Positions 8,273-32,615 of a DNA stretch of 38,327 bases are shown one piece after another; the first letter of the stretch is position 1, and every line of letters starts with the position of its first letter. The stretch comes from an uncultured Alloprevotella sp. (GTDB taxonomy: Bacteria > Bacteroidota > Bacteroidia > Bacteroidales > Bacteroidaceae), in contig CALUIN010000015.1 of the NCBI GenBank assembly GCA_944320745.1, positions 1-38,327 on the forward strand. The letters are read 5' to 3'. Position numbers and translations under genes: made by a program. The notes under the pieces were generated by a model. It ran no database searches. It saw only the letters and a list, made by a program, of their open reading frames with translations, and had not been told where the DNA came from.

Positions 8273-8318
8273 ACAAACGGGGCTAAGGCCAGAAATTTCT
8301 GGCCTTAGCCCCGTTTGT
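8273..8318. repeat. Perfect 46-bp palindrome
   Basis: The 23 bases 8273-8295 are the exact reverse complement of 8296-8318, with no loop bases. The arm reads ACAAACGGGGCTAAGG then CCAGAAA. The inner part coincides with the first unit of the 21-bp array described next. Neither side has a T tract, so it is not an ordinary terminator. It could extrude as a cruciform or fold as a long RNA hairpin. Confidence 0.9.
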
Positions 8319-8366
8319 GCTTCCCTTAGGCCCGTCAGCCGCGACCTAAGCGGCGGCCACCGGGCG
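8283..8366 (+). repeat. 21-bp tandem repeat array, copy A (4 units)
   Basis: Four contiguous 21-bp units start at 8283, 8304, 8325 and 8346. Each opens with CTTAG or CTAAG. Units 2 and 3 continue SCCCGT, and unit 1 continues GCCAGAAATT, close to array B. Units differ internally but keep exact 21-bp phasing. The array lies between the acquired efflux block and the terminator of the dcw operon. Confidence 0.7.
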
Positions 8367-8431
8367 CCGGACGGACTACCCGCGCAGAAGGCGACGCCGC
8401 GACAGGCAGACGGGATATACGCTATAAAACG

Positions 8432-8476
8432 AGCCGCGCGGCACCGTCCCCGTTTGCGGGAAGGCAGCGCGCGGCT
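8432..8476 (-). terminator. Terminator of the dcw operon
   Basis: On the minus strand a 9-bp stem AGCCGCGCG / CGCGCGGCT encloses a small inner hairpin (CCCGCAAACGGG) and is followed by CGTTTTATA. It lies about 65 bp past the cyclophilin stop codon. The T tract is on the correct side for minus-strand transcription. Confidence 0.6.
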
Positions 8477-8539
8477 GCTACGGGCTGAAAAGTCCCTACC
8501 GACGGATGGGCCGGATAACGGCCGGCGGGGGCGTAGCGC

Positions 8540-9262
8540 TTATTCCGCCACGGTGGCCCGGACTATGCGCACGTCCGTTATGGGGCGGTCGTCGGCGTTC
8601 GTTTCCACGGCCTGCATGGCCTCGATGACGTCAAGCCCCTCTACCACTTCGCCGAAGACGGTGTACTGCCCGTCCAAGTGGGGCGCACCGCCCGTCGCGC
8701 GATAGACGGGATCGAGCGACGGGTCAAGTTCCACCTTTCCCTGCGTCAGTTCGTACACATCGCCGGCCAAGGCCGCGAGCTGTCCGTCGGTGAAGCGTTG
8801 CCCCCAGACCACATAGAACTGCGAGCCGCTGCTGCGCCACTCGGGGTTGACGTCATCGCCCTCGCGGGCTGCGGCCACCGCGCCGCGGCGGTGATAGTGG
8901 GCCGGATAGCGGATCTCGGCCGGCAGCGTATAGCCGGGACCTCCCTCGCCCAGCAGCTGGCCGGGCGAGGCGGAGCGCGAGTCGGGGTCGCCCGCCTGCA
9001 CCATGAAGTGGCGGATGACACGGTGGAAGAGCAGGCCGTCGTAATATCCTTCGCGTACCAGCTTGAGGAAGTTGTCGCGGTGAAGGGGTGTGTCGTTGTA
9101 AAGCGCGATGACGAAGTTGCCCATCGTCGTCTCGAACCTTACACGGGTGAGGCTGTCCGTGACGGCTCCCGATGCGGGCAGGAGGGCGACAAGCCACAGC
9201 AGCAGCGGGATGCAGCGGCGGAAGAGGGGGCGAGATGTCTGCGGTTTCATGCTGGTGTTCAT
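8540..9262 (-). CDS. Secreted cyclophilin-type peptidyl-prolyl isomerase
   Basis: A 240-residue protein with an N-terminal signal peptide (hydrophobic RRCIPLLLWLVALLPASGA, about 15-33) and a cyclophilin domain. Motifs include FETTMGNFVIALYNDTPLHRDNF, GLLFHRVIRHFMVQAGDPD (catalytic Arg and Phe/Met/Gln equivalents) and FGEVVEGLDVIEAM. It should catalyse proline cis-trans isomerisation in the periplasm. The ATG overlaps the ftsW stop as ATGA, so it is coupled to the dcw operon and is its last gene. An inserted loop (about 110-190) makes it longer than minimal cyclophilins. No lipobox Cys follows the signal peptide. Confidence 0.9.
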   Translation of the reverse strand: MNTSMKPQTSRPLFRRCIPLLLWLVALLPASGAVTDSLTRVRFETTMGNFVIALYNDTPLHRDNFLKLVREGYYDGLLFHRVIRHFMVQAGDPDSRSASPGQLLGEGGPGYTLPAEIRYPAHYHRRGAVAAAREGDDVNPEWRSSGSQFYVVWGQRFTDGQLAALAGDVYELTQGKVELDPSLDPVYRATGGAPHLDGQYTVFGEVVEGLDVIEAMQAVETNADDRPITDVRIVRATVAE

Positions 9263-10515
9263 ATTAATCCTACGTTGCTTTGGAACTCCTTGGCCAGGGG
9301 GTCGGCCGCCGCGGCCGGCGTCTCGGACTTGGCTGCGGCGTCACGGTTGCGGCGCGCATAGCGGCTGACGCTGAGCATCATGCCGAAATAGATGCAGTTG
9401 ATAATCGTAGAGGTACCGCCACGGCTGATGAGCGGCAGGGGCTGGCCTGTGATAGGCACGAGACCTACGGCGACGAGCATGTTGACCATGGCCTGGAGCA
9501 CCATGAGCAGAGCCAGGCCCATGATGAGGAAGGCGGGGAAATTGCGCTCGCAGCGGCTGGCAATGCGGCCGGCCCGGAAGAGCAGGACAATGTAGAGGAA
9601 GACGACGAAGAAGGCGCCCCAGATGCCCATCTCCTCGATGATGATGGCATAGATGAAGTCGGAATAAGCGTGGGCCAGGCGGTCGCGCTGCTCCGAGTTG
9701 CCGGGCAGCTTGCCGACTATGTTGCTCGAGGCGATGGCTATGTTGGCGTGAGCCTCCTGCGGATGTTCCTCCAGATACTCCATAGGGCTGAGGTCCTTGC
9801 TCCCGTGGTCGTCCACACGGTTCACCCACGTCTCGGCACGGTGAAGCAGGGGGACTTCATTGAGCGCTGTGGAAGGCAGGGCGCGGACAAGGAGCAGGAC
9901 GCCGAGGCCCATTGCGACAAAGAAGAGCGCGACCTTGGCCAGCTGGACCATAGGCACCCGGCCTATGAACATCATGATGTAAACGGTAGCGAAAAGGATG
10001 GCGGCCGTCGAGAGGTTTTCCGGAAATATCAGCAGGCAGACTATGCCGGTGGCCGTAAGCACATATTTCAAGGCGCGGCGGTCCGCTCCGTTCTCGTGCT
10101 GCAGATTGGCCAGCATGAGGGCTACCGTGATGACGACAACACCCTTGGCCAACTCAGAGGGCTGGAAACTGATGCCGAAGATATTCAGCCAGCGCGAGCC
10201 TTCATTGAGCCGCTCGCCCAGAAAGAGCGTGATAATCAGCAGAACAATACAGGTAGGCAGCATCACCACGGGGATAATCTTGAAGTAACGGCAGGGGATG
10301 GCGTGGAAAAACCACACCACGGCCGTGCCTACGGCCAGAAACGAAATTTGCTTGAAAAGTGGGGCCATGTAGTTGCCCGTACTGTAGCTCAGGGAACTTG
10401 CGGCGCTGAAGACCTCAACGATGGAAATCATGCTGAGGAGGAAGAAGACGGCCCATATCACGCGGTCGCCCTGGAATAGCTTCCCCGACGAAATACGTTT
10501 GACTGGTATGTTCAT
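9259..10515 (-). CDS. ftsW: FtsW septal peptidoglycan polymerase
   Basis: A 418-residue SEDS-family inner-membrane glycosyltransferase with about 10 membrane segments that polymerises lipid II at the septum with FtsI. Supporting motifs are SRWLNIFGISFQPSELAK (about residues 117-134), an extracellular loop with SPMEYLEEHPQEAH, GNSEQRDRLAHAYSDFIYAI, and the C-terminal PLISRGGTS. RodA is the alternative, but the position in the dcw operon after murD decides for FtsW. The gap to murD is 54 bp. The C-terminal tail is Ala/Lys-rich and cytoplasmic. Normal length. Confidence 0.95.
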   Translation of the reverse strand: MNIPVKRISSGKLFQGDRVIWAVFFLLSMISIVEVFSAASSLSYSTGNYMAPLFKQISFLAVGTAVVWFFHAIPCRYFKIIPVVMLPTCIVLLIITLFLGERLNEGSRWLNIFGISFQPSELAKGVVVITVALMLANLQHENGADRRALKYVLTATGIVCLLIFPENLSTAAILFATVYIMMFIGRVPMVQLAKVALFFVAMGLGVLLLVRALPSTALNEVPLLHRAETWVNRVDDHGSKDLSPMEYLEEHPQEAHANIAIASSNIVGKLPGNSEQRDRLAHAYSDFIYAIIIEEMGIWGAFFVVFLYIVLLFRAGRIASRCERNFPAFLIMGLALLMVLQAMVNMLVAVGLVPITGQPLPLISRGGTSTIINCIYFGMMLSVSRYARRNRDAAAKSETPAAAADPLAKEFQSNVGLI

Positions 10516-10569
10516 GATTACGGAAGATTTTGTACACTATACACGCGGAATCCGGCAAGGCTGTCGGCA

Positions 10570-11904
10570 TCAGGCCAAGCGCTCGCGGACGCGCTCCTTG
10601 AACTGCTCGCCGCGGTCCTCCATGTTGTGGAAGAGGTCGAAGCTGGCGCAGCAGGGACTGAGCAGCACGGTGTCGCCCGGCCGGGCCAGGGCGGCGGCGG
10701 CCTCCACGCAGTCGGCCATGCTGTGCGTATCGGCGACAGGCAGGTGCAAGTCGTCGAACGCGGCGTGGAGTTTGGCGTTGTCCGCCCCAAGGTAGACCAG
10801 TGCGCGGCACTTCTGGCGGACGAGGGGCAGGACCTCGGCATAGTCGTTCCCCTTGTCTTTCCCGCCGAGAATGAGTACGACGGGGGTCGTCATGCTCTCG
10901 AGCGCCCAGCGGCAGGCGTCCACGTTTGTCGCCTTGGAATCGTTCACGTAATGCACGCCGTTGACGTCGCAGACACGCTCCAGACGGTGCTCCACTCCGG
11001 GGAAGTCCGCCAGCCCGGCGCGTACGGCCCCGGCCGGCGCGCCGGCCGACAGGGCAGCCAATGCGGCGGCAAGCGAGTTGCGCAGGTTGTGGCGGCCGGG
11101 CAAGGACAGTTCGGCCAGCGGCATGCTGAAGGCAACGGGCGCGGTGATGCGGAACGTGTCGCCGTCGGCGTAGCCCACGGCGCCGGCTTCGGGGCTGTCG
11201 GCAAAGGGACAAAGGCGGCGCGACGCGGGATACTTGCGCAGCTCGCGCCCCACGTATTCGTCGCCCTGCCAAAATACAAAGGTGTCGTCGGGGCCTTGGT
11301 TGCGAAGGATGCGCATCTTGGCGTCCACGTAGTTCTGCATGCAGAATCCGTAGCGGTCCAGATGGTCGGGCGTGATGTTCAGGAGCACGGCCACGTCGGC
11401 CCGAAAGTCGTACATGTTGTCCAGTTGGAAGGAGGAGAGCTCTATGACGTAGCCGGGCCGGGGCGCTTCGGCCACCTGATAGGCCAGGCTGCGACCGATG
11501 TTTCCTGCCAGGCCGTAGTTCATCCCCGCCTTCTGGAGGATGTGGTGAATGAGGGAGGTCGTAGTGGTCTTTCCGTTGCTACCTGTGATGCAAATCATGC
11601 GGGCGTCGGTGTACCGTCCGGCAAGCTCGATCTCACTGATAATCGGGACGCGGCGTTCGCGCAACGCTGCGACCATAGGGGCCGTGTCCGGGATGCCGGG
11701 ACTTTTGACCACCTCGTCAGCGGCGAGGACACGCTGCGCCGTATGTCCGCCCTCCTCCCAAGCAATGCCGTAGCGCTCGAGCATTTGCTTGTACGGCTCG
11801 CCTATGTGCCCGGAGTCGGAAACGAATACTTCGGCGCCCTGCTTCTGAGCCAGCACGGCGGCGCCCACGCCGCTTTCGCCCGCTCCCAATATGACTGTTC
11901 GCAT
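10570..11904 (-). CDS. murD: UDP-N-acetylmuramoylalanine--D-glutamate ligase
   Basis: MurD (444 aa) adds D-glutamate to UDP-MurNAc-L-Ala in the cytoplasm. An N-terminal Rossmann-like fold (MRTVILGAGESGVGAAVLA) is followed by the Mur-ligase ATP loop GSNGKTTTT (residues 108-116). Next come the LDNMYDFRADVAVLLNITPDHLDRYG region with the metal-binding His/Asp, the NDSKATN motif, and the C-terminal LGGKDKGNDY. Fifteen bases separate it from mraY upstream. Length is typical. Confidence 0.97.
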   Translation of the reverse strand: MRTVILGAGESGVGAAVLAQKQGAEVFVSDSGHIGEPYKQMLERYGIAWEEGGHTAQRVLAADEVVKSPGIPDTAPMVAALRERRVPIISEIELAGRYTDARMICITGSNGKTTTTSLIHHILQKAGMNYGLAGNIGRSLAYQVAEAPRPGYVIELSSFQLDNMYDFRADVAVLLNITPDHLDRYGFCMQNYVDAKMRILRNQGPDDTFVFWQGDEYVGRELRKYPASRRLCPFADSPEAGAVGYADGDTFRITAPVAFSMPLAELSLPGRHNLRNSLAAALAALSAGAPAGAVRAGLADFPGVEHRLERVCDVNGVHYVNDSKATNVDACRWALESMTTPVVLILGGKDKGNDYAEVLPLVRQKCRALVYLGADNAKLHAAFDDLHLPVADTHSMADCVEAAAALARPGDTVLLSPCCASFDLFHNMEDRGEQFKERVRERLA

Positions 11905-11919
11905 CGTCTATGAATTGTT

Positions 11920-13194
11920 TTATCGGATTTTCAATGTTATGATGGTGGCCGCGGCCAGGAGAATCGTCGTAATCCAGAAACGGACGGTAATCTTGGACTC
12001 GTGCCAGGCGCCATGTGGCCAGTTCTTGAAGACATAGCGGCACGTGGGGTCGAGCTGGTTCTTCAGGACGCGGAAATTATCGTGGATCGGCGTCCGCTTA
12101 AACAGTCGCTGCCGCACGCCCTTGCGCTTGCCCAGCTTGAAATACTCCACCTGAAGAATGACACTCAGGCTCTCCACGAGGAATACGCCGCAGAGTATGG
12201 GGATAAGCAGCTCCTTGTGAATGATAATGGCCAGCACGGCTATCACGCCGCCGATGGTCAGCGAGCCGGTGTCACCCATGAAGATCTGTGCCGGATAAGC
12301 GTTGTACCATAGGAAACCGATGAGCGCGCCCACCATCGCGCAGATAAAGATTACCAGTTCCTGCGAGCCGGGTATGTACATGATGTTCAGGTAACTGGCA
12401 AACTCTATGTGACTGGACACATAGGCCAGAATGCCCAGCGCGATACAGATTATCGCAGAATTGCCCGCCGCCATGCCGTCCATGCCGTCGTTGAGGTTTG
12501 CCCCGTTCGACACGGCCGTTATCACGAAAATCGTGACGATGACGAAGAGTATCCAACCGGCCTGGGTCTTGTACTTCCCGCAGAAGGACATGATTTCGGT
12601 ATAGTCCAGGTTATTGTTCTTGACGAAGGGGATAGTCGTCTTGGTCGACTTGACGGGCTCGCTCTTGTGGACCACCTCCGTCTGCGCCCCGCCCTGCCGG
12701 TCTATCTCCACGTTCTCGCGGATGACGGCGTCGGGACTGAAGTAGAGGACCAGGCCCACGACCAGCCCCAGTACGACTTGTCCCAATATCTTGAACTTGC
12801 CGGGCAGGCCGTCCTTGTTTTTCTTGAAATTCTTGATATAGTCGTCAATGAATCCCAAGGCGCCAAGCCACAGCACCGTTACAATCATCAGTATCATGTA
12901 TATATTGCGCAGACGGCCGAGCAAGAGGCAGGGCACCAGCACCGACACGATGATAATGATGCCGCCCATCGACGGCACGTTCAGTTTCTGCACGCCGAAG
13001 GGGTCTATGGACGCGTCGCGCTGCGTCTCGCTGTAGTTGTGGCGCTTCATCCATTTGATGAAGTACTCGCCGAACCACGCCGAGATGACAAGGGCGAGCA
13101 TCAGCGCCAGCAGGGAGCGGAAGGAGATGTAGCCCCACAGGTTCGCGCCGGGTACGCCGAACTGCTCCAGGAATCGGAAGAGGTAGTATAGCAT
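11920..13194 (-). CDS. mraY: Phospho-MurNAc-pentapeptide transferase (MraY)
   Basis: A 424-residue polytopic membrane enzyme that moves phospho-MurNAc-pentapeptide from UDP onto undecaprenyl phosphate, giving lipid I. Motifs seen are PSMGGIIII, the Asp-rich GFIDDYIKNFKKNKDGLPGKFK, and NGANLNDGMDGMAAG, which hold the catalytic acids. It is about 60 residues longer than E. coli MraY because of a hydrophilic insertion (about 168-205, DRQGGAQTEVVHKSEPVKST) after the fifth membrane segment; such insertions are known in Bacteroidetes MraY. 21 bp downstream of murE. Confidence 0.96.
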   Translation of the reverse strand: MLYYLFRFLEQFGVPGANLWGYISFRSLLALMLALVISAWFGEYFIKWMKRHNYSETQRDASIDPFGVQKLNVPSMGGIIIIVSVLVPCLLLGRLRNIYMILMIVTVLWLGALGFIDDYIKNFKKNKDGLPGKFKILGQVVLGLVVGLVLYFSPDAVIRENVEIDRQGGAQTEVVHKSEPVKSTKTTIPFVKNNNLDYTEIMSFCGKYKTQAGWILFVIVTIFVITAVSNGANLNDGMDGMAAGNSAIICIALGILAYVSSHIEFASYLNIMYIPGSQELVIFICAMVGALIGFLWYNAYPAQIFMGDTGSLTIGGVIAVLAIIIHKELLIPILCGVFLVESLSVILQVEYFKLGKRKGVRQRLFKRTPIHDNFRVLKNQLDPTCRYVFKNWPHGAWHESKITVRFWITTILLAAATIITLKIR

Positions 13195-13215
13195 GTCGGT
13201 AAGATTTTTTGGGAA

Positions 13216-14700
13216 TTAACGGGCGTGGGCGGCGGACGGTTCCGCGTCCAGGCCGAAAGCGGCCCGCACCTCCTCGTGGTCGTCGAAGTGGTGTTTCACG
13301 CCTTTCACTTCCTGGTAGGGCTCGTGTCCTTTCCCGGCCACGAGGATGACGTCGCCCGGCTGCGCCAGCATGGCCGCCGTGCGTATGGCTTCCCTGCGGT
13401 CGGCTATGCTGATCACTTTGCGCGCCTGCTCGGCATCGAGCCCGGCCAACATGTCGTCGATGATGGCCTGCGGATCCTCGAAGCGGGGATTGTCGCTCGT
13501 GATGATGACGCGGTCGCTGCGCGTGGCGGCCTCGCGGGCCATGAGCGGGCGCTTACCCCGGTCGCGGTTGCCGCCGGCCCCGCACACCGTGATGATGTGC
13601 CCCTTGCCGCGGACTATCTCCCCTATAGCCGTCAGCACGTTGGCCAAGGCGTCGGGGGTATGGGCATAGTCAATGATGGCGCTCACGCCCTGCGGCGAAC
13701 GGATGGCTTCGAAACGTCCGTTGACGGGGTGGAGCGTGGAAAGTACGCGCAACACTTCGACCGGCTCATGGCCGGACATGACTGCCGCGCCGTAGACAGC
13801 CAGCAGGTTCGACACGTTGAAGCGCCCCACAAAGCGGACGCTCACCTCGTGCCCGTCGATGTCGAGCAGCATGCCCTCGAGCGACTCTTCCAGAATGCGG
13901 CCCTTGAAGTCGGCTGCCGCGCGGGTGGAATACGTCCGCACGACGGCCGCCGTATTCTGCACCATGACCATGCCGTTGCGGTCGTCCGCGTTCGTAATGG
14001 CAAACGCTTCCTTCGGCAGGCCGTCGAAGAAGGCCTTCTTGGCGTCGCGGTAGTTCTCGAACGTCTTGTGATAGTCCAGGTGGTCGCGCGTCAGGTTGGT
14101 GAAGATGCCGCCGGCGAAACGCAGGCCGGCGATGCGCCGCTGGTGTATGGCGTGGGAACTGCACTCCATGAAGGCGTACGTGCAGCCGGCGTCGGCCATG
14201 CGGCCCAGGAGCCGGTTGAGCGTCACGGGGTCGGGCGTGGTGTGCTCCGTGGGGACGGGCTCGCCGTCCACGTAGTTGCAGACGGTAGACACCAGGCCGC
14301 AGCGGTAGCCGAAGGCGCGAAACATGTGGTAGAGCAGCGTGGCAATGGTCGTCTTGCCATTGGTACCCGTCACGCCGACCAGGTGCATGCGCTCCGTAGG
14401 ATCGCCGTAGAAATGCGTAGCGACAGGTCCTACGGCCCCTTCCGTGTCCGCCACGCGGACATAGGTCGTGCCCGGCTGCGCGTCGACGGGGATGGGCTCG
14501 CTCACCAACACGGCGCCCGCGCCCTGTGCTACGGCTTTGCCCACGTAGGCGTGACCGTCCGTCTGCGTACCCTTCACGGCTACGAACAAGTCGCCGGGAC
14601 GCACCTGGCGTGAATCCATGTTCACGCCCGATATTTCTACCTCAAGGCTGCCCTTCACTTCCAGCGGGGACAGCATTCGGATAAGTTCTGACAGTTTCAT
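13216..14700 (-). CDS. murE: UDP-MurNAc-tripeptide synthetase, meso-DAP type
   Basis: MurE (494 aa from the ATG at 14700) adds the third stem residue to UDP-MurNAc-L-Ala-D-Glu. The ATP loop [10 protein letters not shown] is at about residues 109-118. The specificity motif reads DNPRFEDP, with the Arg that recognises meso-diaminopimelate rather than lysine (DNPR versus D(D/N)P(N/A)). The C-terminus carries [11 protein letters not shown]. An in-frame TTG four codons upstream also opens the frame, but ATG followed by MKLSEL is the usual MurE start, so the shorter form is chosen. The 25-bp gap follows ftsI. Confidence 0.96.
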
Positions 14701-14725
14701 GGCAGCACTCAAATATAGTGATTCT

Positions 14726-17101
14726 TTAGTTTGACCTCTTCTTACGGTTCTCTACCGGCTGCGCCGCGCCCTGGGCGGCGGGCTGCGCGGCGGCCCGGGG
14801 TTTGCGCGGTTTTTCGCCCAGCGTCAGGCGTACCGTCTGCCCGCGCTTCACGGCATGTCCCGGCCGGATGCTTTGCTCGCGCACCAGCCCCACGCCTTCG
14901 GCCTTTACCCGCAGGCCCATGCGCTCCAGGCGGTAGAGGGCGTCGCGCAGTCCGTAGCCCTCCACGTCGGGCATGCGACCGTCGGCGTCCTCGGCCGGCA
15001 AGAGCACGATGTCATTGCCGGAGCCGCCGCTCTTTCCCCAGACGGCCTCCCTGCCGTCCACGGGCATCCCGGCGCGGCAGCCTACGCCGATTTCCCGGAA
15101 CAGGCGGGCCGCAGCGGCCATGTCGCCGGCCATCCGCACGGGCTGCTTGCAGCGCACCGTGTCGCGCGCCTTGCTGTAGTCAGCCACGTGGTTGCGGGCC
15201 ATGATAGACTCGGCCACCCGCTTGAACACGGGGCCGCACATGCCGCCGCCCGAGGCCGGGGCCGTCTTGCGGATGCAGACGATGCAGGAATAGAGCGGCT
15301 TGTCGGCAGGAAAATAGCCGGCATAGGAGATGAAATACTCCGAGGTGCGTCCGCGGCCTGTCCAGATCTGGGCCGTTCCCGTCTTGGCCGCCACGGGGAA
15401 GTAGCGGCTGCCGCCGGCCTTGCCCAGCCCTATGGACACCACTTCCTCCAGGCAGGTACGGATGTTGCGCACGGCTTCCGGCCGCGCCATCTGCTTGCGC
15501 AGCACGGTCACGGGAAATTCCTTCACCACCTTGCCGTCGCGCAGGATGGCCTTCACCAGGCGGGGGCGGAGCAGGCAGCCGTTGTTGGCTATACCGTTAT
15601 AAAAGTTCAGCGTATTGATAGGGGCCAGCTGCGTCTCGTAACCGATGCTCATCCAAGGCAGCGTGGTGCTGGACCAATAGGCGCCTTCGCCCGGACGGCG
15701 GATGCGGGGTTTCTGGTAGCCGGGCAAGGGTATCTTCAGGTCTTCCTTCACGCCGATGCGCTCCAGGCCCTTGACGAAAGCCGCCGGGTCATCGTGGTAG
15801 TACTTATTAATAAGGTAGCTCACGCCGACGTTGGACGAGCGCTGGATGATTTGCGGGACAGTGAGCACACCGTAGCCGCCCGAACGCCAGTTGTGGTCGC
15901 GCATTTTGCGGTTGCCGAAGTTGTAGACGCCGCCGCCCACGTCCACCTGATCGTCCATCTTGATTTTCCCGTCGTCGAAAGCCACGAGGAAGGACATGGG
16001 CTTGAACACGGATCCGGGCTCGTAGATGTCCGTGACGGGCAGCGCCGTGTCCTCGTGGTAGGACCCGTCCTCATGGCGCGTCAGGCCGGTCATGCCCTTG
16101 ATGTCGCCCGTGGCCACCTCCATCACGATGCACACGCCCGACTTGGCCTCCAGCTCCTTGAGCTTGTCGCTAAGGGCTTTCTCGCAGATTTCCTGGATAG
16201 TGACGTCGAGCGTGGTCATCACGTCGCAGCCGTCCACGGCGGGGCTGTCTATCTGTACGACGCGGCGGTTCATCACCTTTTCGAAATGGAACGAGCCGGG
16301 GCGGCCGGCCAGCGCGCTGTCGAACGTCAGCTCCAGGCCGTAGCGGGCCGTGTCCTTGAAGTCGCCGATGGTGCGCACGGCCAGTTCGCCAAACGGCCGG
16401 CGCCGCATTTCGATCTTGCGGAAGTTCGCGCTGGAGCGCAAGCGGAAGAGGGGAAGTTTGCTCACCTCGCTGTATTCCACATAGCTGATGCGGCGGTTCT
16501 CGCGCTTGCGCAGGGGCAGGGAGGTCACCGCCCGGGTGTAGACGGGCCAGTAGCGGCTCCGGGCCCGGCGGCCGGCCAGCAGGTGTGCGCGCAGCTTGCC
16601 CGGGTCAACATCGGGGAAGATGCGGTGGAAGCCGGCGCAAATCTCGTTCATATGGAGCATGAGGACCGTGTCGCGGCGGTACTGGTCCTTCTCGCGCCAG
16701 TCCTCCAGGAGCCGCGCGCGCAGCGCGGTCAGGTTCTCGTCGGGATACACGGACTGCACCAGGCGGCACGCGGCGGCCAGGCTGCGGTAGACGGTCGTGT
16801 CCTTGAGGTAACGGTTGTCCTTGCTCCAGGCCGTGTCGTTTTCGGTCGACATGAAGTCCAGATTGATCTCGTACTCGGGCAGCGAGGCCGCCAGCACCTG
16901 TCCGTCGGCGGCAAGGATGTTGCCGCGCTTGGCGGGCAGCGGGCGCCCTTCCTTCACCTGCAGCTTGCTCATTTCGAGCCAGTATTCGCGGTCGGCCGTC
17001 ATCGTATAGAGCGCCTTGCCCACCACGCTGAGAGCCAGCAGGGCCAGCACCAGCGTCACCAGGAAATAGCGGGGCATGATTTTCTTGCTCAGGAAGTTCA
17101 T
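14726..17101 (-). CDS. ftsI: FtsI/PBP3-type transpeptidase with PASTA domain
   Basis: A 791-residue class B penicillin-binding protein that crosslinks septal peptidoglycan. A short cytoplasmic tail and one membrane helix (about 11-34) come first, then the pedestal domain and the transpeptidase. Active-site motifs are EPGSVFK (Ser364, Lys367), SSN (422-424) and KTG (573-575). A PASTA domain follows (about 708-763, [20 protein letters not shown]), then a Lys/Arg/Ala/Pro-rich tail. It is longer than many Bacteroidetes homologues, in part through a pedestal loop about 105-200 rich in Arg. Alternative start at Met9. Position after the ftsL-like gene supports FtsI. Confidence 0.95.
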
Positions 17102-17114
17102 AAGCCGAGACCTT

Positions 17115-17627: not shown

Positions 17628-17637
17628 GTCCTGTCGT

Positions 17638-19070: not shown

Positions 19071-19088
19071 CCTTTCTAAAAGATTTTC

Positions 19089-19120: not shown

Positions 19121-19332
19121 CTCCGGCCGGGCAATTTTTCTCGCCTTTTCTCCTTTGCTGGAGGTGATTCATGGCAAGCCTTTATTTATCAACGGCTTAC
19201 ACGATTGTTAAAAGTGAAGCGCAGGGGCCCGGCACGGTGGGGCAAAGGCAAGGAGGTAAGCAGTCCGTGTCTGTGCCGCCCGCTGGCAAAACCGGCCGCC
19301 CGGCGTGAAGCTTCGGGCCACGAGAAACTCAC

Positions 19333-19395
19333 CTTAGGCCAGGAATTACGCGCCTTAGGCCAGGAATTACGCGCCTTAGGCACGTGACTGCGCGC
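19333..19395 (+). repeat. 21-bp tandem repeat array, copy B (3 units)
   Basis: Units start at 19333, 19354 and 19375. The first two are identical over all 21 bp (opening CTTAGGCCAGGAATTACG); the third keeps CTTAGGC at its start and GCGC at its end. Region 19071-19543 between mraZ and gyrB contains no gene; besides the promoter and the hairpin at 19464 this array is its main content. Confidence 0.85.
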
Positions 19396-19543: not shown

Positions 19544-21517
<1,974 letters not shown>

Positions 21518-21537
21518 CTACTTGCTGTTTAACCAAG

Positions 21538-21693: not shown

Positions 21694-21741
21694 TCCATGT
21701 GCAAACTAAAAAGATTGCTATGAAAAAAATCATTCTATGTT

Positions 21742-23853: not shown

Positions 23854-23959
23854 AATATGGTTTTTCTTTTCTGTGATTTTATATTCGGTAACAGTAAGAT
23901 TTCCAATCCGTGACCCGCTGCCGCCAAAGATTCTTCAGGAACAGCGGTATTTTATCCTG

Positions 23960-23993
23960 CAAATATAATCTTTTCCTTATTATGTCTTACAAA
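23960..23993 (-). promoter_or_regulatory. Promoter of the fasciclin lipoprotein gene
   Basis: Minus-strand TATATTTG (23960-23967) has TTTG (23990-23993) 22 nt upstream, close to the 19-21 nt Bacteroidetes spacing. The leader to the ATG at 23853 is about 100 nt, long for this window, and has no obvious riboswitch fold. Confidence 0.6.
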
Positions 23994-24107
23994 AACTACT
24001 GGTGTATTAACCTTTTTTAATCTGCAATTTTTTCCTGCGCCCGGTTTTCGGGCGTTTTGGGGGAGCAATCGGCAGCCTCGGTCTCGCGCGCCGTTGCCGC
24101 CGTCCGC

Positions 24108-24170
24108 GTCCGCGAAGACGGGGATAATGGCCGTAGCGACGGGGCTTAGCGGCGTAGCGACGGGGATAAG
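24108..24170 (-). repeat. 21-bp tandem repeat array, copy C (3 units)
   Basis: Read on the minus strand, units start at 24170 (CTTATCCCCGTCGCTACG), 24149 (CTAAGCCCCGTCGCTACG) and 24128 (ATTATCCCCGTC). The first two differ at only four or five of 21 positions. The array lies between the fasciclin gene promoter and the terminator of the POT transporter. The gene-free region 23994-24300 holds only this array and that terminator. Confidence 0.8.
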
Positions 24171-24228
24171 CCCAGTATTTAGGGAAACAGGCCGGGCGGC
24201 GCGGCCGCGGACGGGCGGAGACGAAAAA

Positions 24229-24261
24229 CGCGGGCCGGCAGCCGGAACTGCCAGGCCCGCG
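24229..24261 (-). terminator. Terminator of the uvrA-ybaK-POT operon
   Basis: A GC-rich stem (CGCGGGCC-GGCAG with one bulged base) is followed on the minus strand by TTTTTCG. It lies 40 bp after the POT transporter stop: a classic intrinsic terminator. Confidence 0.75.
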
Positions 24262-24300
24262 GGATATGGGTTTTGCGGTTTTCGCTCAGTGCTGCCGTCC

Positions 24301-25791: not shown

Positions 25792-25832
25792 AAGTTATTG
25801 AATTTAGAGTTAGTGAATAAAGATTTTTCTCG

Positions 25833-26318
25833 TTACTCGCCGCCGGCGGCGAGGTCGGCCAGCTCGGCGCGGGCCTCGCGCAAAAGGTCGGCGGGGGCTA
25901 TGCGGACCTGCAGGCCGCGCTGGCCGGCGCTGACGTAGATATGGGGGTGGTCGGCGGCGCTACGGTCCACGTAGGTGGGAAAATGCTTCTTCATCCCGAT
26001 GGGGGAGCAGCCGCCGCGGATGTAACCGGTCGTAGGCAGCAGTTCCTTGAGCGGCAGCGGCTCCACCTTCTTGTTTCCGCTGACGCGGGCGGCCTTCTTC
26101 AGATCGACTTCCGCGTTGCCCGGCACGACGCAGACCAGATGGCCGGTGCGGTCGCCGTGAAGGACGATGGTCTTGAACACTTGCCGCACGTCCTCACCCA
26201 GGGCTTCGGCCACGTGGGCGGCGCCAAGGTCGCTCTCGTCGAAGTCGTAGGGAATCAGCTCGTAGGGCACCTTATCGCGGTCCAGCAGTCGCGCCACGTT
26301 GGTCTTCTGTATTTTCAT
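25833..26318 (-). CDS. ybaK: Cys-tRNA(Pro) deacylase YbaK/EbsC
   Basis: A 161-residue trans-editing enzyme that hydrolyses mischarged Cys-tRNA(Pro). Motifs are HVAEALGEDVRQVFKTIV (including the conserved Lys), VVPGNAEVDLKKAARVSGNKK, and GYIRGGCSPIGMKK, the YbaK signature loop. The length equals the E. coli protein. Its ATG overlaps the uvrA stop by 4 bp. ProX-type Ala-tRNA(Pro) deacylase is the alternative, but the GGCSPIG motif favours YbaK. Confidence 0.93.
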   Translation of the reverse strand: MKIQKTNVARLLDRDKVPYELIPYDFDESDLGAAHVAEALGEDVRQVFKTIVLHGDRTGHLVCVVPGNAEVDLKKAARVSGNKKVEPLPLKELLPTTGYIRGGCSPIGMKKHFPTYVDRSAADHPHIYVSAGQRGLQVRIAPADLLREARAELADLAAGGE

Positions 26319-29164
26319 TTGAGTTCGTTTTTCAGGAACGGCGCAGTGTGGCCCAACCCCGAGGCGGCCACCTGCTCGGGCGTACCGGCGACGACGATCT
26401 GTCCGCCGCCGCGTCCGCCCTCCGGACCCAGGTCGATGACGTAATCGGCCGACTTGATGACATCCAGATTGTGCTCGATGACTATCACCGTGTTGCCGCG
26501 GTCGGCGAGGCGGTTCAGGACGCCGAGCAGTACGCGGATGTCCTCGAAGTGTAGCCCCGTGGTCGGTTCGTCTAATATATATATGGTGCGGCCGGTGTCG
26601 CGCTTGGCCAGTTCGGTGGCCAGCTTCACGCGCTGGCTTTCGCCGCCGGAAAGCGTTGTCGAAGACTGTCCGAGCTTAATGTAGCCCAGCCCGACGTCTT
26701 GCAGCACCTTTATTTTGTGCAGGATACTGGGGACGTTCTCAAAGAACTCGACCGCGCGGTTGATGGTCATGTCCAGCACGTCGGCGATGCTCTTGCCCTT
26801 GAATCGGACTTCGAGCGTCTCGTGGTTATAGCGTTTGCCGTGGCATACTTCGCAGGGGACGTACACATCGGGCAGGAAATTCATTTCTATGGTCTTGTAA
26901 CCGTTGCCCTTGCAGGCTTCGCAGCGTCCGCCGCGGACGTTGAAGGAGAAGCGCCCGGGCTTGTAGCCGCGCATTTTCGCTTCGGGCAGGCCGACGAAGA
27001 GGGCGCGGATGTCGGCGAACACGCCGGTGTAGGTGGCGGGGTTGGAACGGGGCGTGCGGCCCAAGGGGCTCTGGTCTACGGCCACGACCTTGTCCACGGC
27101 GTCGAGCCCCTCGATGGCCTCGTAGGGCAAGGGCTCGCGCAACGAGTGGTAGAAACGCTGCGAGAGGATGGGCAGCAGTGTGTCGTTGATGAGCGTGCTT
27201 TTCCCGCTTCCCGAAACGCCGGAGACGCAGATGAGCGTTCCCAGGGGAAAGTCGGCCGTCACGCGCTTAAGGTTGTTGCCGCTGGCGCCGACGAGCCGCA
27301 GGTGGCTGCCGTTGCCGGCGCGGCGCCGGGCCGGGATGGCGATGGACTGGCTGCCGTTCAGGTAGGCCGCCGTAAGGGTGTCGCGGTGAAGCATCTCGGC
27401 GGGCGTGCCCTGGAACACGACTTCGCCGCCCAGGCGCCCGGCCCGGGGGCCCATGTCTATGATATAGTCGGCCGAGAGCATCATATCCTTGTCGTGCTCC
27501 ACGACGACGACCGTGTTGCCCAAGTCGCGCAGCCGCTTGAGCGAATCGATGAGGCGCACGTTGTCGCGCTGATGAAGTCCGATGCTGGGCTCGTCGAGTA
27601 TGTAGAGTACGTTGACCAGCTGCGAGCCTATCTGCGTGGCCAAGCGGATGCGCTGGCTCTCGCCGCCGGAAAGGGTCATGGTGGCGCGGTTAAGCGAGAG
27701 GTAGTCCAGGCCTACGTCGAGCAGGAACTTCAGGCGCGAGCGCAGTTCCTTGAGTATTTCGCGGGCTATGGCGCCGCTCTTTTTGTTGACCTTCGTCTCT
27801 ACGCCGTCGAGCCATTCGTAGAGTCCGGCCACGTCCATGGAGGACAGTTCGTAGATGTTCTTGCCGTTGAAGCGGTAGCTGAGGGCCTCGCGATTGAGGC
27901 GTGCGCCGTGACAAAGGGGACACACGGACGTTTTCGAGAACTGGTCGGCCCATTTTTGCGCCGCGGCAGTCATTTCGTCGGCGGCCATGCGCTCGATGTA
28001 CTTCGCCAGGCCGTCGAACTCCACGTAGTAGTCGTCCGTTGTGTGGGCCATGGCCGCGGGGATGCGTATCCGGTCCGCCGACCCGCTGAACACTTCGTCG
28101 AGCGCCTCCTCCGGCACTTCGGCCAGCGGCGTGTCCAAGTCGCAGCCATAGAGCGCCAGCACGGCGGCCACTTCCCAGAAGATAAAGGCGTTGCGGTACT
28201 TCCCCAGCGGGACGAGCCCGCCCTGGCGGATGCTGAGCGAGGGGTTGGGCATCACCTTCTCGCGATCGATGACGCTGACATAGCCCAAGCCCTTGCACTT
28301 CGGGCAGGCGCCCTGCGCGGAGTTAAAGGAAAAGTTGTGGGGAGCCGGCTCGCGGTATGAGATGCCCGAGGTGGGACACATCAGCCGCTTGGAATAATAG
28401 CGTGCGTCGCCGGTCGTGTCGTCCAGGATAAGCATCAGGCCGTTCCCCTGCTCCATCGTCCGGGCCACGCTTTTGCGGAGGCGCTCGCCGTCCTTTGCGC
28501 GGACCACGAGCTTATCCACCACGACTTCGATGTCGTGGTTTTTGTACCGGTCCACCTTCATGCCGGCCGTCACCTCACGGATCTGTCCGTCGACGCGCAC
28601 GGTCAGGTAGCCCTTGCGCCTCACCGTCTCGAACAGCTCCCGGTAATGCCCCTTGCGGTTCTTCACGAGCGGGGCCAGGAGGTAAGCCTTATGCCCTTCG
28701 TAATGGTCCAGGATGAGGCGGATTATCTGCTCCTCGGTGTATTTCACCATGCGCTCGCCCGTGACGTAGCTGTAGGCTTCGCCGGCACGGGCATAGAGGA
28801 GGCGGAGGAAGTCATAGATTTCCGTCACCGTCCCCACCGTGGAGCGCGGATTCTTGTTCGTCGTCTTCTGCTCGATGCTGATCACTGGGCTCAAGCCGGT
28901 GATTTTGTCCACATCGGGCCGCTCCAGATTGTCCAGGAAGTTACGGGCATAGGCCGAGAAAGTCTCGATGTAGCGCCGCTGTCCTTCGGCATAAAGCGTA
29001 TCGAACGCCAGCGAACTCTTGCCGCTGCCGCTCAGCCCGGTAATGACGGTCAAGGAATTACGGGGCAGGCGCACGTCCACGTTTTTCAGATTGTGTACGC
29101 GCGCGCCCCAAATTTCTATCCAGTCTTTCTCTTCCATCTGATTGTCTGGTCCGCCGGAACTCAT
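26315..29164 (-). CDS. uvrA: Excinuclease ABC subunit A
   Basis: UvrA (949 aa) is the damage-sensing ATPase of nucleotide excision repair. Two ABC modules are seen: Walker A GLSGSGKSS (43-51) and GVSGSGKST, with signatures LSGGESQRIRLA and LSGGESQRVKLA and the Walker B blocks LDEPSIGLH and LDEPTTGLH. The C-terminal zinc site is intact (CEACKGNG with CEVCHGKR). The first zinc site reads CPTS (263-266) with CPKC (287-290), so one of its four Cys is Ser. The ATG overlaps the T9SS-cargo stop (ATGA); Met10 is an alternative start. UvrB and UvrC are not in the window. Confidence 0.96.
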   Translation of the reverse strand: MSSGGPDNQMEEKDWIEIWGARVHNLKNVDVRLPRNSLTVITGLSGSGKSSLAFDTLYAEGQRRYIETFSAYARNFLDNLERPDVDKITGLSPVISIEQKTTNKNPRSTVGTVTEIYDFLRLLYARAGEAYSYVTGERMVKYTEEQIIRLILDHYEGHKAYLLAPLVKNRKGHYRELFETVRRKGYLTVRVDGQIREVTAGMKVDRYKNHDIEVVVDKLVVRAKDGERLRKSVARTMEQGNGLMLILDDTTGDARYYSKRLMCPTSGISYREPAPHNFSFNSAQGACPKCKGLGYVSVIDREKVMPNPSLSIRQGGLVPLGKYRNAFIFWEVAAVLALYGCDLDTPLAEVPEEALDEVFSGSADRIRIPAAMAHTTDDYYVEFDGLAKYIERMAADEMTAAAQKWADQFSKTSVCPLCHGARLNREALSYRFNGKNIYELSSMDVAGLYEWLDGVETKVNKKSGAIAREILKELRSRLKFLLDVGLDYLSLNRATMTLSGGESQRIRLATQIGSQLVNVLYILDEPSIGLHQRDNVRLIDSLKRLRDLGNTVVVVEHDKDMMLSADYIIDMGPRAGRLGGEVVFQGTPAEMLHRDTLTAAYLNGSQSIAIPARRRAGNGSHLRLVGASGNNLKRVTADFPLGTLICVSGVSGSGKSTLINDTLLPILSQRFYHSLREPLPYEAIEGLDAVDKVVAVDQSPLGRTPRSNPATYTGVFADIRALFVGLPEAKMRGYKPGRFSFNVRGGRCEACKGNGYKTIEMNFLPDVYVPCEVCHGKRYNHETLEVRFKGKSIADVLDMTINRAVEFFENVPSILHKIKVLQDVGLGYIKLGQSSTTLSGGESQRVKLATELAKRDTGRTIYILDEPTTGLHFEDIRVLLGVLNRLADRGNTVIVIEHNLDVIKSADYVIDLGPEGGRGGGQIVVAGTPEQVAASGLGHTAPFLKNELK

Positions 29165-29862
29165 TCGGCGACTCCGCTGCTCTCGGAGTATCCGCGCAGT
29201 ATGTTGATTACTTTCTTGATGTTATAGTCGCGTCCGTCCGCGCCGCGCGCCTTGAGAACGAGGTAATAGGCGCCGTCCGGCACGTCCGATCCGCCGCTTT
29301 TCCCGTCCCAGCCTTCTGCGGGGTCGTTCCACTCGTAGAGTTTACGCCCCCAGCGGTTGAACACTTGCGCCCGGAACGAGACAATGCTCTCGTAGCCGTC
29401 CTTCACTTTGAACACATCGTTCACGCCGTCGCCGTTGGGCGTGAAGGCGTTGGGCACCTCCAGGCGCGACTCGCTGATGTTTATGGTGAACGGTTGGTCC
29501 ATCTCGTACTCCAGCGTGTCAGTCCCGAGGACGAAGCTCACGAGCAGGGTCACCGTAAAGGCGCCGCTTTCCACGAAGGTGTACTCCGTTTCCGCATCGT
29601 AGCGCACGATGAACGGTTCGGCCTGTCCGTCGCGGCGGAACTGCCATTCATAATAAGGAGTGTACTGCCCCTCATCGGTCACGTTGGCAGCGAAGCGGGC
29701 CGTCATCGGGGCCGAGCCGTCGAAGGCCGTTTCTTCCGTCTCGCTGCCGTCCGCCGCTACGATGGTCATCGTCGGCCCGGCCGAGGGCAACGTCTGCGCG
29801 GCGGCCCAGAGCGGACAGAAGGCCGCCCCCAGGAGCAACAGGGACAGGAGAATACGGGGCAT
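29161..29862 (-). CDS. Small T9SS cargo with type-B (gliding-motility-associated) C-terminal domain
   Basis: A 233-residue secreted protein. A signal peptide (MPRILLSLLLLGAAFCPLWA) is followed by a short PKD/Ig-like beta region (about 30-130, YYEWQFRRDGQAEPFIV). The C-terminal domain of about 90 residues starts LEVPNAFTPNGDGVNDVFKV (about 135-154) and continues VFNRWGRKLYEW and DVPDGAYYLVLKARG. This is the type-B sorting domain of the type IX secretion system, which delivers proteins across the outer membrane. The ATG at 29862 is used because the longer frame (29895) starts upstream of the promoter. Coupled to uvrA by ATGA overlap. Function of the short N-terminal part is unknown. Confidence 0.85.
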   Translation of the reverse strand: MPRILLSLLLLGAAFCPLWAAAQTLPSAGPTMTIVAADGSETEETAFDGSAPMTARFAANVTDEGQYTPYYEWQFRRDGQAEPFIVRYDAETEYTFVESGAFTVTLLVSFVLGTDTLEYEMDQPFTINISESRLEVPNAFTPNGDGVNDVFKVKDGYESIVSFRAQVFNRWGRKLYEWNDPAEGWDGKSGGSDVPDGAYYLVLKARGADGRDYNIKKVINILRGYSESSGVAE

Positions 29863-29878
29863 AGAATCGATTTTCCTG

Positions 29879-29886
29879 CAAAGATA
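29879..29886 (-). promoter_or_regulatory. -7 promoter element of the T9SS cargo-uvrA operon
   Basis: Minus-strand TATCTTTG matches TAnnTTTG and lies 16 bp before the ATG at 29862, implying a very short leader. It fixes the start codon downstream of 29879. No TTTG at -33. Confidence 0.65.
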
Positions 29887-29987
29887 GTGAATCACGGGAG
29901 ATTGAGATGTTAAATCGTCAGAATTTATTGTGCGCTTGTGACAGAATCCTGCTTTCCGCGGAGCCTGGCGGGGGTGCGAAACAAGAA

Positions 29988-30017
29988 CTCCCCGCCGGCA
30001 CTGCTGCCGGCGGGGAG
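29988..30017 (-). terminator. Terminator of pnp
   Basis: A perfect 13-bp GC stem (CTCCCCGCCGGCA and complement, 4-nt loop) is followed on the minus strand by TTCTTGTTTC. It is about 45 bp past the pnp stop codon. Confidence 0.75.
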
Positions 30018-30061
30018 GCTGCGGGCCTTGGCCCGTTATGGTATCTGTCGCGACCCGTGCC

Positions 30062-32278
30062 TTAGCGGCGCTCGCGGCGCGGTCCGCGGTGGTCGGCTCC
30101 GCCCTCGCGGCGCGGACGGCGCGCGGGGCGCTCCTCCCAGCCTTCGGGCTTCTCCTCGAGTACGCGATGGGACAGGCGGAACTTGCCCGTCTTCTCGTCT
30201 ATCTCAAGCAGCTTCACCTTGATCATGTCGCCTTCCTTGATGCCGGCGTCCTCCACGCTCTCGAGGCGCGTCCAGCTGATCTCGCTGATGTGGAGCAGGC
30301 CTTCGCGTCCGGGCATGAACTCTACGAAGCAGCCGTAGGGCATGATGCTCACCACTTTCGCGTCGTACACCTCGCCCACTTCGGGGATGGCTACGATGGC
30401 GCGGATCTTGGCCACGGCGGCGTCGATGCTTTCCTTGTTGGGCGCGCTCACCTGCACCTTGCCCACGCCGTCTTCCTCGTCGATGGTGATCGTAGCGCCG
30501 GTGTCCTCCTGCATGCCTTGGATAATCTTTCCGCCCGGGCCGATGACGGCGCCGATGAACTCCTTCGGAATCTCGAAGGCCTCGATGCGCGGCACCTGGG
30601 GCTTGAAGTCGGGACGCGGAGCGGGCATGGCCTCGTTCAGCTTGCCGAGGATGAACTCGCGGCCGGCCTTGGCCTGCATCAAGGCTTTTTCCAGGATTTC
30701 GTAGGAAAGCCCGTCACACTTGATGTCCATCTGCGTAGCGGTCAGGCCCTTGGCCGTACCGGTTGTCTTGAAGTCCATGTCGCCCAAGTGGTCCTCGTCG
30801 CCGAGGATGTCGGAGAGGACGGCATACTTCTCCTCGCCGGGGTTCTTGATAAGGCCCATGGCGATGCCGCTGACGGGGGCCTGGATGGGCACACCGGCGT
30901 CGAGCAGTGCGAGCGTTCCGGCGCAGACGGTGGCCATGGAGCTGGAGCCGTTGCTTTCCAGGATATCGCTCACCACGCGGACCGTGTAGGGGAAGTCTGC
31001 GGGAATCTGTCCCTTCAGCGCGCGCCAAGCCAAGTGGCCGTGGCCGATCTCGCGGCGGCCCACGCCGCGCTGCGCCTTGGCCTCGCCCGTGGAGAAGGGC
31101 GGGAAGTTATAGTGGAGCAGGAAGCGCATGTAGCTCTTGTCGAGCACGTCGTCCACCAGCTTCTCGTCGAGTTTCGTGCCCAGGGTGCACGTGGCCAGGG
31201 CCTGCGTCTCGCCGCGGGTGAAGATGGCCGAGCCGTGAGGTCCGGGCAGGGGGTCGATCTCGCACCAGATGGGGCGGATTTCCGTCGTGGCGCGTCCGTC
31301 GAGGCGCTTGCCCTCGTCCAGGATGCAGCGGCGCATGGCGTCGCGCTCCACATCGTGGTAGTAGCGGTCCACGAGGGCGTTCTTCTCCTCGAGCTCGTCG
31401 GGCGTCAGGTCGGGATGGGCGGCTGCATAGCGCTCCTTGAAGTCCTCGCGAATCTGCATGAAGGCGTCCTCGCGCTGGTGCTTGTCGTGGTCGCCGGCCT
31501 CGGCGATGGCGTAGGCGGGCGCGTAGCATTCGTTCTTCACCTGCTCGCGCAGTTCCTCGTCGTTCACCTCGTGGCAGTATTCGCGCTTCACGTCGGTGCC
31601 CAGTTCCTTGGAGAGTTCCTTCTGCAGGCGGCACATGGGCTTGATGGCCTCGTGGGCCACCTTGAGGGCTTCGAGCAGTGCGCTCTCGGGCACTTCCTTC
31701 ATCTCGCCCTCCACCATCATGATGTTCTCCTCCGTAGCGCCGACCATGATGTCCATATCGGCCTTCTCCAGCTGCTCGAAGGTGGGGTTCACGACATACT
31801 TCCCGTCGATGCGGGCCACGCGGACCTCGGAGATGGGGCCCTCAAAGGGGATGTCGGAGCAGGCCAGGGCGGCTGAGGCGGCAAAGCCGGCCAGCGCGTC
31901 GGGCATGTCCACGCCGTCGGCCGAGAAGAGCGTGATGTTGACGTAAACCTCTGCATGGTAGTTGCTGGGGAAGAGGGGGCGCAGCGCGCGGTCCACCAGG
32001 CGCGAAGTCAGGATCTCGTAGTCCGAGGCGCGGCCTTCGCGCTTGGTGAAGCCGCCGGGGAAACGTCCTGCGGCGGCGTATTTTTCCTTGTAGTCGCATT
32101 GGAGCGGCATGAAGTCCGTTCCGGGCACTGCGTCCTTGGCAGCGCAGACTGTGGCCAGCAACATCGTGTTGTTCAGGCGGAGCATGACGGCTCCGTCCGC
32201 CTGTTTGGCCAGCTTGCCGGTCTCGATGCTGATGATGCGTCCATCAGGCAACTCGACGGTTTTCGTAATCACGTTCAT
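30062..32278 (-). CDS. pnp: Polyribonucleotide nucleotidyltransferase
   Basis: PNPase (738 aa) degrades RNA 3'-to-5' by phosphorolysis. Two RNase PH-like domains are linked by an alpha-helical segment; [25 protein letters not shown] and [20 protein letters not shown] are core motifs. A KH domain follows (about 563-625, [16 protein letters not shown] with the GxxG loop), then an S1 domain (about 640-712, [20 protein letters not shown]). The tail after about 715 is Arg/Pro/Gly-rich and may bind RNA or a partner. Length is usual. Transcribed alone, with own promoter and terminator. Confidence 0.97.
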
Positions 32279-32326
32279 CTGGTTGGATTTCTAATGTTTT
32301 AATGCTATATTCTTCTCTAAATCGCG

Positions 32327-32334
32327 CAAAATTA
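32327..32334 (-). promoter_or_regulatory. -7 promoter element of pnp
   Basis: Minus-strand TAATTTTG matches TAnnTTTG, 48 bp before the pnp ATG. The leader is AT-rich with no strong fold. No TTTG at -33. Confidence 0.6.
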
Positions 32335-32395
32335 CCAATTTATTTTGAGCGGGAACCGCGCGCGCGGCATTTTTTTCAGAATATTGACGCACGGG

Positions 32396-32479
32396 GCCGC
32401 CGCACACGGGGCTAAGGGGAATTTTTACGGGGCTTAGCCCCGTGCCGACGGCAATAGGGCCCGTAGCGACGGCGCTTGA
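32396..32479 (-). repeat. 21-bp tandem repeat array, copy D (4 units)
   Basis: Read on the minus strand, units start at 32479 (TCAAGCGCCGTCGCTACG), 32458 (CCTATTGCCGTC), 32437 (CTAAGCCCCGTA) and 32416 (CTTAGCCCCGTG). Phasing is exactly 21 bp; two further hairpins arise because neighbouring units are partly self-complementary (12-bp stem 32405-32416 with 32433-32444). The array lies between the divergent promoters of pnp and the macroglobulin-like gene. A weaker fifth unit may follow to 32500. Confidence 0.75.
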
Positions 32480-32615
32480 GGAAACGGGCGGCGCGACGGT
32501 CGGCGACAGCGTGGGGCGGCGCTCCGGAGGCACCGCGGAGGGCCTTTTTGCGATTTTTCACGCCGCACGCTTGGCCGGTCCGCCGCGATGTCCTATATTG
32601 CGCCAATTTTGGCGC

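Follow-up and report, generated by a model that had tools for sequence, protein, structure and literature searches.

Evenly spaced arrays of phased near-palindromic sites, with species dialects, in an uncultured Alloprevotella

What are the short tandem repeats that lie between the genes in a stretch of DNA from an uncultured Alloprevotella sp. (contig CALUIN010000015.1 of assembly GCA_944320745.1; all 38,327 nucleotides of it are referred to here as the window)? An original prediction, made from the letters alone, had picked out four intergenic arrays with 14 phased units of 21 bp. It proposed that they bind a protein along one face of the DNA, or else that they are RNA hairpins or a mobile repeat. 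The four arrays are now confirmed as members of a chromosome-wide family, which is much larger than reported. The arrays have a fixed layout, are abundant in the sampled DNA, lie between genes and are evenly spaced. Many sampled relatives in the genus keep the layout with a different motif, and several arrays persist at equivalent gaps in different species.

Phased sites in the window and along the chromosome

Reading the four stretches and laying their units in register shows that all of the reported arrays are present. The site consists of a 6-bp arm, a 5-bp core and another 6-bp arm (ACGGGS-CTWAG-SCCCGT), followed by 4 variable bases. Aligned units give ACGGGSCTWAGSCCCGT, then variable bases, as the consensus of this genome. 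The core is CTTAG or CTAAG, and CCTAT, ATAGG, CCTAG and CTAGG also occur. There are 71 distinct 4-mers among 138 spacers (both readings counted), and array edges have only a weak partial half-site.

Array A (8277..8335) is made of three 17-bp sites in 21-bp steps, which start at 8277, 8298 and 8319, and a perfect 46-bp palindrome (8273-8318) covers the first two. Array B (19327..19385, in the gap between gyrB and mraZ) and array C (24118..24176) each have three sites in 21-bp steps as well. Array D (32406..32443), which adjoins the PNPase gene, has two strong sites 21 bp apart, with a decayed third at about 32448-32464. According to a home-made gene finder, the gaps that hold A, C and D are convergent, tandem and divergent, respectively. 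No array is given a strand here. The prediction had two on the plus and two on the minus strand, an orientation that carries little meaning because the 17-bp site is nearly palindromic. The count of 14 units stands in part. A matrix built from 56 training sites (loci L001-L030 of the same genome, none inside the window) gives 11 of the 14 units scores of 7.2 to 25.3 bits, and these count as sites. The units at 8346 (-0.2 bits), 32458 (2.0 bits) and 32479 (-12.6 bits) score too low. This leaves three sites in each of A, B and C, and two plus the decayed one in D.

How far does the family extend? A model built from the 14 units has at least 163 matches in the genome at a lax E of 10 (with the best 150 of 2471 candidates scored), and its best matches fall outside the window. 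CTWAG recurs at multiples of 21 bp in 29 of the 30 loci that were cut out, two of which (L005 and L024) show one and the same array. A genome-wide profile search was the check named with the prediction, and its outcome did not refute the family. Site-pair distances were then taken from 430,976 bp of the genome's own assembly (G000; 2.15 Mb in 50 contigs, 84% complete), namely contig C1 whole, C2 1-140,000, C3 1-60,000, C8 1-20,000 and the window (C15). Pairs lie 21 bp (152 pairs), 22 bp (4), 42 bp (98) or 43 bp (5) apart, and no pair lies at any other distance within 17-45 bp. One Markov-1 simulation of the same 430,976 bp has no pair at any distance from 17 to 45 bp. A share of the 56 training sites comes from the stretches of C1, C2 and C3 used here; C8 and the window are independent of them. 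The 21-bp phasing is not due to chance.

The same 431 kb contain 65 arrays, which extrapolates to about 320 per 2.15-Mb genome. Three sites are spanned by 36 of them, four by 17, five by 4 and two by 4, and 4 are longer, where a span may take in a weak middle site. The predicted intergenic location holds for 63 of the 65 (less than 30% overlap with genes predicted by a home-made codon-usage finder), the other 2 being inside predicted genes. With genes on both sides, 61 intergenic arrays occupy 30 tandem, 16 convergent and 15 divergent gaps (36 divergent gaps of at least 80 bp are available). Arrays lie nearer to stop codons (median distance 57.5 bp, 62 sides) than to start codons (median 185 bp, 60 sides), and only 1 of the 60 start-codon sides is closer than 60 bp.

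The arrays are also spaced more evenly than random placement between genes would give. Their intervals have a coefficient of variation (CV) of 0.57, compared with null means of 0.86-0.98, and 0 of 5000 draws are as low. For the null, predicted gaps with a minimum length of 100, 150 or 200 bp were drawn at random and given one array each. Intervals shorter than 2 kb, of which about 8 to 10 are expected, do not occur outside a single block of C3 (31-41.5 kb). In that block (about 31000-41500; L099 and L100) neighbouring genes are similar and the intervals are about 1.5-2.6 kb; its arrays were probably copied along with the duplicated genes. Eight array-free intervals exceed 11 kb, with 0-3 gaps of at least 150 bp in each. 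These are mostly long same-strand runs, while C1 23.5-40.7 kb is mixed.

Local copying of units, another element of the prediction, holds for the longest arrays, which are built of near-identical units, but most arrays have differing spacers. Three of the longest run off contig ends; the breaks inside long 21-bp arrays are at the end of C5, the end of C7 and the start of C20. Therefore, the longest arrays are probably undercounted. A Pfam scan of 10 proteins beside five arrays (the 7-unit array of C13 and the contig-end arrays were left out) returned an RNA methyltransferase, a flavin reductase, MerR, an AraC-type protein, an Lnb domain, an aspartyl protease, a thymidine kinase, a Mur ligase/alanine racemase, a deaminase and a dipeptidyl peptidase. 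The AraC-type gene flanks a 7-site array, and the MerR-type gene is the second gene from an 8-site array. As for the rest of the window, tRNA alone among known RNA families reaches its gathering score, and one protein has a CHU_C domain. GyrB is 81% identical to that of a Phocaeicola record, which together with the CHU_C domain places the genome in the Bacteroidales. A contig scan with MraZ gave two records, the better one from an uncultured Prevotellaceae at 49% identity.

Dialects among relatives

Is the motif common to the genus? A model of the window's own motif (R2, run with stricter filters and 116 candidates scored per genome) has matches in 2 of 58 genus genomes at an E of 0.01. These are its own genome (at least 119) and G014 (6), the motif of which, ACtGgCCTaAGGcCaGt, is a cousin of the first. 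G008 and G020 have TCTGCA-AGCAC-TGCAGA plus 4 bases, and a model of this motif (R3) matches those 2 of the 58 genomes only (at least 89 and at least 115 matches, E 1e-4). Further motifs are GATCCATCCCATGGAAT plus 4 bases in G015 (five arrays), CCCAGAAATTTCTGGG in G016 (four arrays in 100 kb), AAACCAAGCCTTGGTTT in G047 (one array) and AAATTAAGCCTTAATTT in G054. G019 and G047 have more than one array motif each, and the steps are 22 bp in G066 and G024. One idea linked 22-bp steps to even-centred palindromes and a constant 4-bp gap. This fits G066, G024 and G007, but was rejected on account of G016, where the centre is even and the steps are 21 bp.

That the layout is kept can be seen without any motif. 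A self-similarity scan of non-coding DNA at lags of 14-39 in 18 genus genomes (1.53 Mb, own genome included) found 59 hits at lag 21 and 16 at lag 22, and no other lag had more than 5. Of the 59, 26 come from the own genome. In all, 14 of the 18 genomes have a hit at one of these two lags, although G004 and G073 each have just one, which stands amid hits at other lags. G014, G017, G009 and G044 gave none at either lag, the last three being represented by 20 kb each. Twelve genomes that belong to other families, sampled at 4 to 100 kb apiece (413 kb in total), gave 0 hits at lag 21, a single one at lag 22 and no more than 5 at any remaining lag. With a matrix from its own, partly the same, sites, 118 kb of G014 yields 9 arrays. 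Its site pairs number 17 at 21 bp, 1 at 22 and 9 at 42, in addition to 1 at 33 and 2 at 45. In G008 and G020 the pairs are 55 at 21 bp, 2 at 22 and 30 at 42, with 1-2 at six distances besides 42-44 (real and control together). The spacing tables of G054, G007 and G024 were not counted because weak matrices shift the register by one base; in those of G054 and G024, moreover, one array appears twice.

Even spacing recurs as well. All 28 arrays called in G008 and G020 are intergenic, as in the prediction, and their mean interval is 9.1 kb. The CV is 0.41 against a null of 0.75-0.81 (P 0.0003 or less), and none of the 21 intervals falls below 3 kb, against an expectation of 3.6-4.7. G008 and G020 are close kin with common array positions. 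Therefore, together they amount to one repeat of the even-spacing test.

Other repeats were met along the way. G019 has several 22-bp array motifs within one 80-kb stretch (L115, L150-L152; joined coordinates about 21258 and 60859). In its 11-unit array the arms change together and keep their pairing (TTGGAC/GTCCAA, TTGCAA/TTGCAA, CTGAAC/GTTCAA), so unlike the main family this one could be a hairpin array. G020 has a second family beside its TCTGCA arrays, consisting of four 22-bp arrays (TTATCATGCGCATGAGAAGAAC; L132 about 690, L135 about 147 and 14590, L136 about 4771). Three of them are nearly identical, and the family may belong to an element that is mobile or has been duplicated. Locus L055 of G069 has 26-bp head-to-tail repeats (ATAACCTGCGCGAAGCGCA...), which are distinct from the 21/22-bp kind. 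Finally, a GTGGGGAA box is repeated directly upstream of mraZ in relatives (L057, L058, L060, L061, L063-L065, L067), and it resembles a MraZ operator.

A proposed protein platform and its difficulties

What would read such arrays? The chances seem about even that they are cooperative platforms for a sequence-specific DNA-binding protein, that the specificity of this protein shifts between species, and that the platforms are chromosome-wide anchors or insulators. Each near-palindromic 17-bp site would take one dimer. Half-sites recur in alternating orientation about every 10.5 bp, and with steps of 21 bp (two helical turns) the dimers, in most cases three or more, would line up along one face of the DNA. 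The specificity of the protein would change between species and the sites along with it, as dialects. It is the place and even spacing of the arrays that suggest a boundary or anchor role. They lie between genes, nearer stops than starts, in all three gap types and several kb apart, as might suit anchors or insulators between transcription units. The original idea of a protein bound along one DNA face gains from the fixed 21/22-bp step, the conserved arms and the variable spacers, although no such protein has been found.

The arms provide another clue. Complementarity falls short of that of shuffled arms both between the arms that face each other across a spacer (z -6.0, 143 internal pairs) and between the two across a core (z -7.0, 221 called sites), although related arrays were kept in and these values overstate the evidence. 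Counting G-U pairs leaves the result unchanged. An earlier count of 98 sites, which took in array ends whose next arm is no site, gave z -2.3 and -3.8. In addition, the scores of the two arms of a site show a negative correlation (rho -0.18, p 0.007, 231 sites), which selection for total affinity would produce. Either selection for the overall strength of binding or an avoidance of perfect hairpins would account for it, and the arm scores speak against selection for base pairing.

Do individual arrays persist? Four of them are at equivalent gaps in G008 and G020, where aligned DNA is about 72-88% identical. The 40-bp flanks of these matched arrays have a best-shift identity of 0.38-0.57, compared with 0.40 (standard deviation 0.04) at random, and several cores are inverted between the two genomes (GTGCT in one, AGCAC in the other). 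Positions 271-21499 of the window are syntenic with contig C287 of G014. There the gap equivalent to that of array A has a three-site array in the G014 motif, with flanking proteins that are 62-69% identical.

Several observations do not fit the protein platform so well. Two of the right flanks just described (0.57 and 0.50) exceed random, which means that flank likeness is partly kept. Arm identity is no higher between matched arrays of G008 and G020 (0.86-0.97) than between unmatched ones (0.83-0.94). Such identity therefore shows that the motif is shared; it does not show that single sites are conserved. The G020 arrays at 49538 and 60481 have no G008 array at the corresponding places (best pair scores of 5.8 and -6.1, versus about 44). 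Both sit just outside collinear blocks, and either loss or rearrangement could explain this. Similarly, the gyrB-mraZ gap has a called array in the window's genome only and none called in G014, so that 1 of 2 comparable window gaps has an array there too. Array positions therefore turn over. G004, a genome that is 99% complete, has no clear array in 140 kb. Tandem copying enlarges some arrays, and the even-spacing null depends on a home-made gene finder.

The last difficulty is that no partner protein was found among PF01316, PF02195, PF00440, PF01381 and PF01037, which are five guessed families and not a survey (AraC and MerR were not searched). ArgR (PF01316) is present in 7 of 10 genomes and gave no match in G004, G008 and G054. 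Its helix is TQATLSRDL in the own genome, G014, G015 and G047 and AQTTLSRDL in G020 (5 of the 7 were read, with G016 and G066 left out of the comparison). ParB (PF02195) is in 6 of 7 genomes, G004 included, and both TetR (PF00440) and HTH_3 (PF01381) are in 7 of 7. By eye, the helix is kept in one TetR group (G047, G004, G020, G016, G014) and in one HTH_3 group (G014, own genome, G016, G015, G020). Lrp/AsnC (PF01037) is in 16 of 16 genomes. Of its 26 listed matches 14 were fetched. One group has 10 readable rows, of which 9 share the helix CGVSRAAIHQRV while G007 differs (the G015 row was excluded). Several extracted sequences that began from a wrong upstream reading were skipped in these comparisons. 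The groups read largely keep their recognition helices while the array motifs differ.

Other explanations and what the arrays may mean

What if no such protein exists? An unlikely alternative is a mobile or selfish repeat, resembling a repetitive extragenic palindrome (REP) or a miniature inverted-repeat transposable element (MITE), that grows locally in tandem. Its copies would be kept apart because of target immunity or because those inside genes are purged. The arrays are indeed lineage-specific intergenic repeats, their positions turn over between species, and the longest ones consist of near-identical units, three of them running off contig ends. However, spacers vary widely in most arrays, and no common flank was noticed by eye in the arrays inspected, for which no formal target-duplication search was made. 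Copies of a MITE (e.g., BrickBuilt) have terminal inverted repeats and target duplications in common. REPs of the GTAG/CGTC class are defined by a GTAG or CGTC tag that stands unpaired at one of their ends (PMC3733652). No fixed tag of this kind is seen in the consensus. The REP-associated tyrosine transposase (RAYT) domain, PF01797, has 0 matches in the 84%-complete own assembly, whereas 5 of 14 controls do give a match (other transposases were not searched). The arrays are like REPs and bacterial interspersed mosaic elements in being repeated extragenic palindromes, but differ in their fixed 21-bp step and even spacing as well as in the missing tag and RAYT. A viral origin was also considered, and one exact two-site pattern had 0 matches in IMG/VR. 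The mobile repeat of the original prediction is, on balance, disfavoured. Clustered regularly interspaced short palindromic repeats, with repeats of about 30 bp and unique spacers of about 30-40 bp, are not a match for 17-bp sites and 4-bp spacers in 65 separate short arrays within 431 kb.

A rather improbable idea is that the arrays serve self-recognition. Machinery for DNA uptake, transfer or defence would read the species dialect, and each stretch of several kb would have its own array. DNA uptake words are short and often intragenic. The arrays, in contrast, are about 60 bp, phased and almost exclusively between genes (63 of 65). Species dialects and even spacing would nonetheless suit such a signal. 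DNA uptake sequences of the Neisseriaceae likewise form dialects (PMC3630211). The likeness to DNA uptake sequences and uptake signal sequences is that of chromosome-wide short signals that differ between related species. The difference is that those are short single words, while the arrays are phased near-palindromes.

More doubtful still is an ordinary large regulon, in which a known regulator (ArgR-like, Lrp-like, or of another family such as AraC or MerR) binds tandem operators. ArgR and Lrp operators are also tandem near-palindromes at about two helical turns. ARG boxes are described as 18-bp semi-palindromes 3 bp apart (PMC6640053), and the Lrp-type BarR is predicted to bind 4-5 sites two helical turns apart (PMC10201364). 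An ArgR operator has two such boxes, and the layout here is 17+4 with usually three sites; the geometry of the arrays fits a multi-site operator of Lrp (tandem semi-palindromes two turns apart, bound by an octamer). The AraC-type and MerR-type genes near the 7-site and 8-site arrays could also be seen as support. However, very many arrays beside varied genes, evenly spaced, are unlike a regulon, which is what these operators serve. Moreover, the helices of Lrp (CGVSRAAIHQRV, 9 of 10 rows) and ArgR (TQATLSRDL, 4 of 5 read) are largely kept while the array motif changes, and G008 and G054 carry arrays without an ArgR match, though both genomes are incomplete.

Least probable are transcribed hairpins or terminators, or roadblocks like the stoperators of phages, at gene ends. 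The nearest stop codon is close (the median of 57.5 bp), and stoperators are dispersed repressor sites whose motif varies between phages and evolves with the repressor (PMC6550527). However, the RNA hairpins of the original prediction are opposed by the complementarity below that of shuffled arms (z -6.0 and -7.0), where a hairpin would show compensatory changes, and by the 15 of 61 placed arrays in divergent gaps. Unlike these near-palindromic chromosomal arrays, a mycobacteriophage stoperator is a single asymmetric site in the genome of a phage, and most point one way with respect to transcription.

This brings the argument back to the protein platform. MatS, SlmA and Noc sites are dispersed palindromic sites, mostly single and with conserved motifs, each kind serving one protein along the chromosome. 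The arrays resemble them in this, but come in 21-bp steps, are evenly spaced and have species dialects. No earlier account of such arrays was found in the open-licence PMC literature; subscription papers were outside this search and a prior description is possible. With somewhat less than an even chance, then, the arrays may represent a boundary or self-marking system that is new to bacteria. Its evenly spaced multi-dimer platforms would have a species dialect that co-evolves with a putative DNA-binding protein, by analogy somewhat as with PRDM9/CTCF-like proteins in animals. If this is true, the genus marks its chromosome every 5-10 kb with a geometry that is fixed and a sequence that is rewritten between species. 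A single bait would then make two questions testable: whether anything, and if so what, sets domain boundaries between the transcription units of Bacteroidales, and by what route a protein can acquire a new specificity when it has hundreds of sites. Meanwhile, the spacing rule itself is a search pattern that does not need a known motif.

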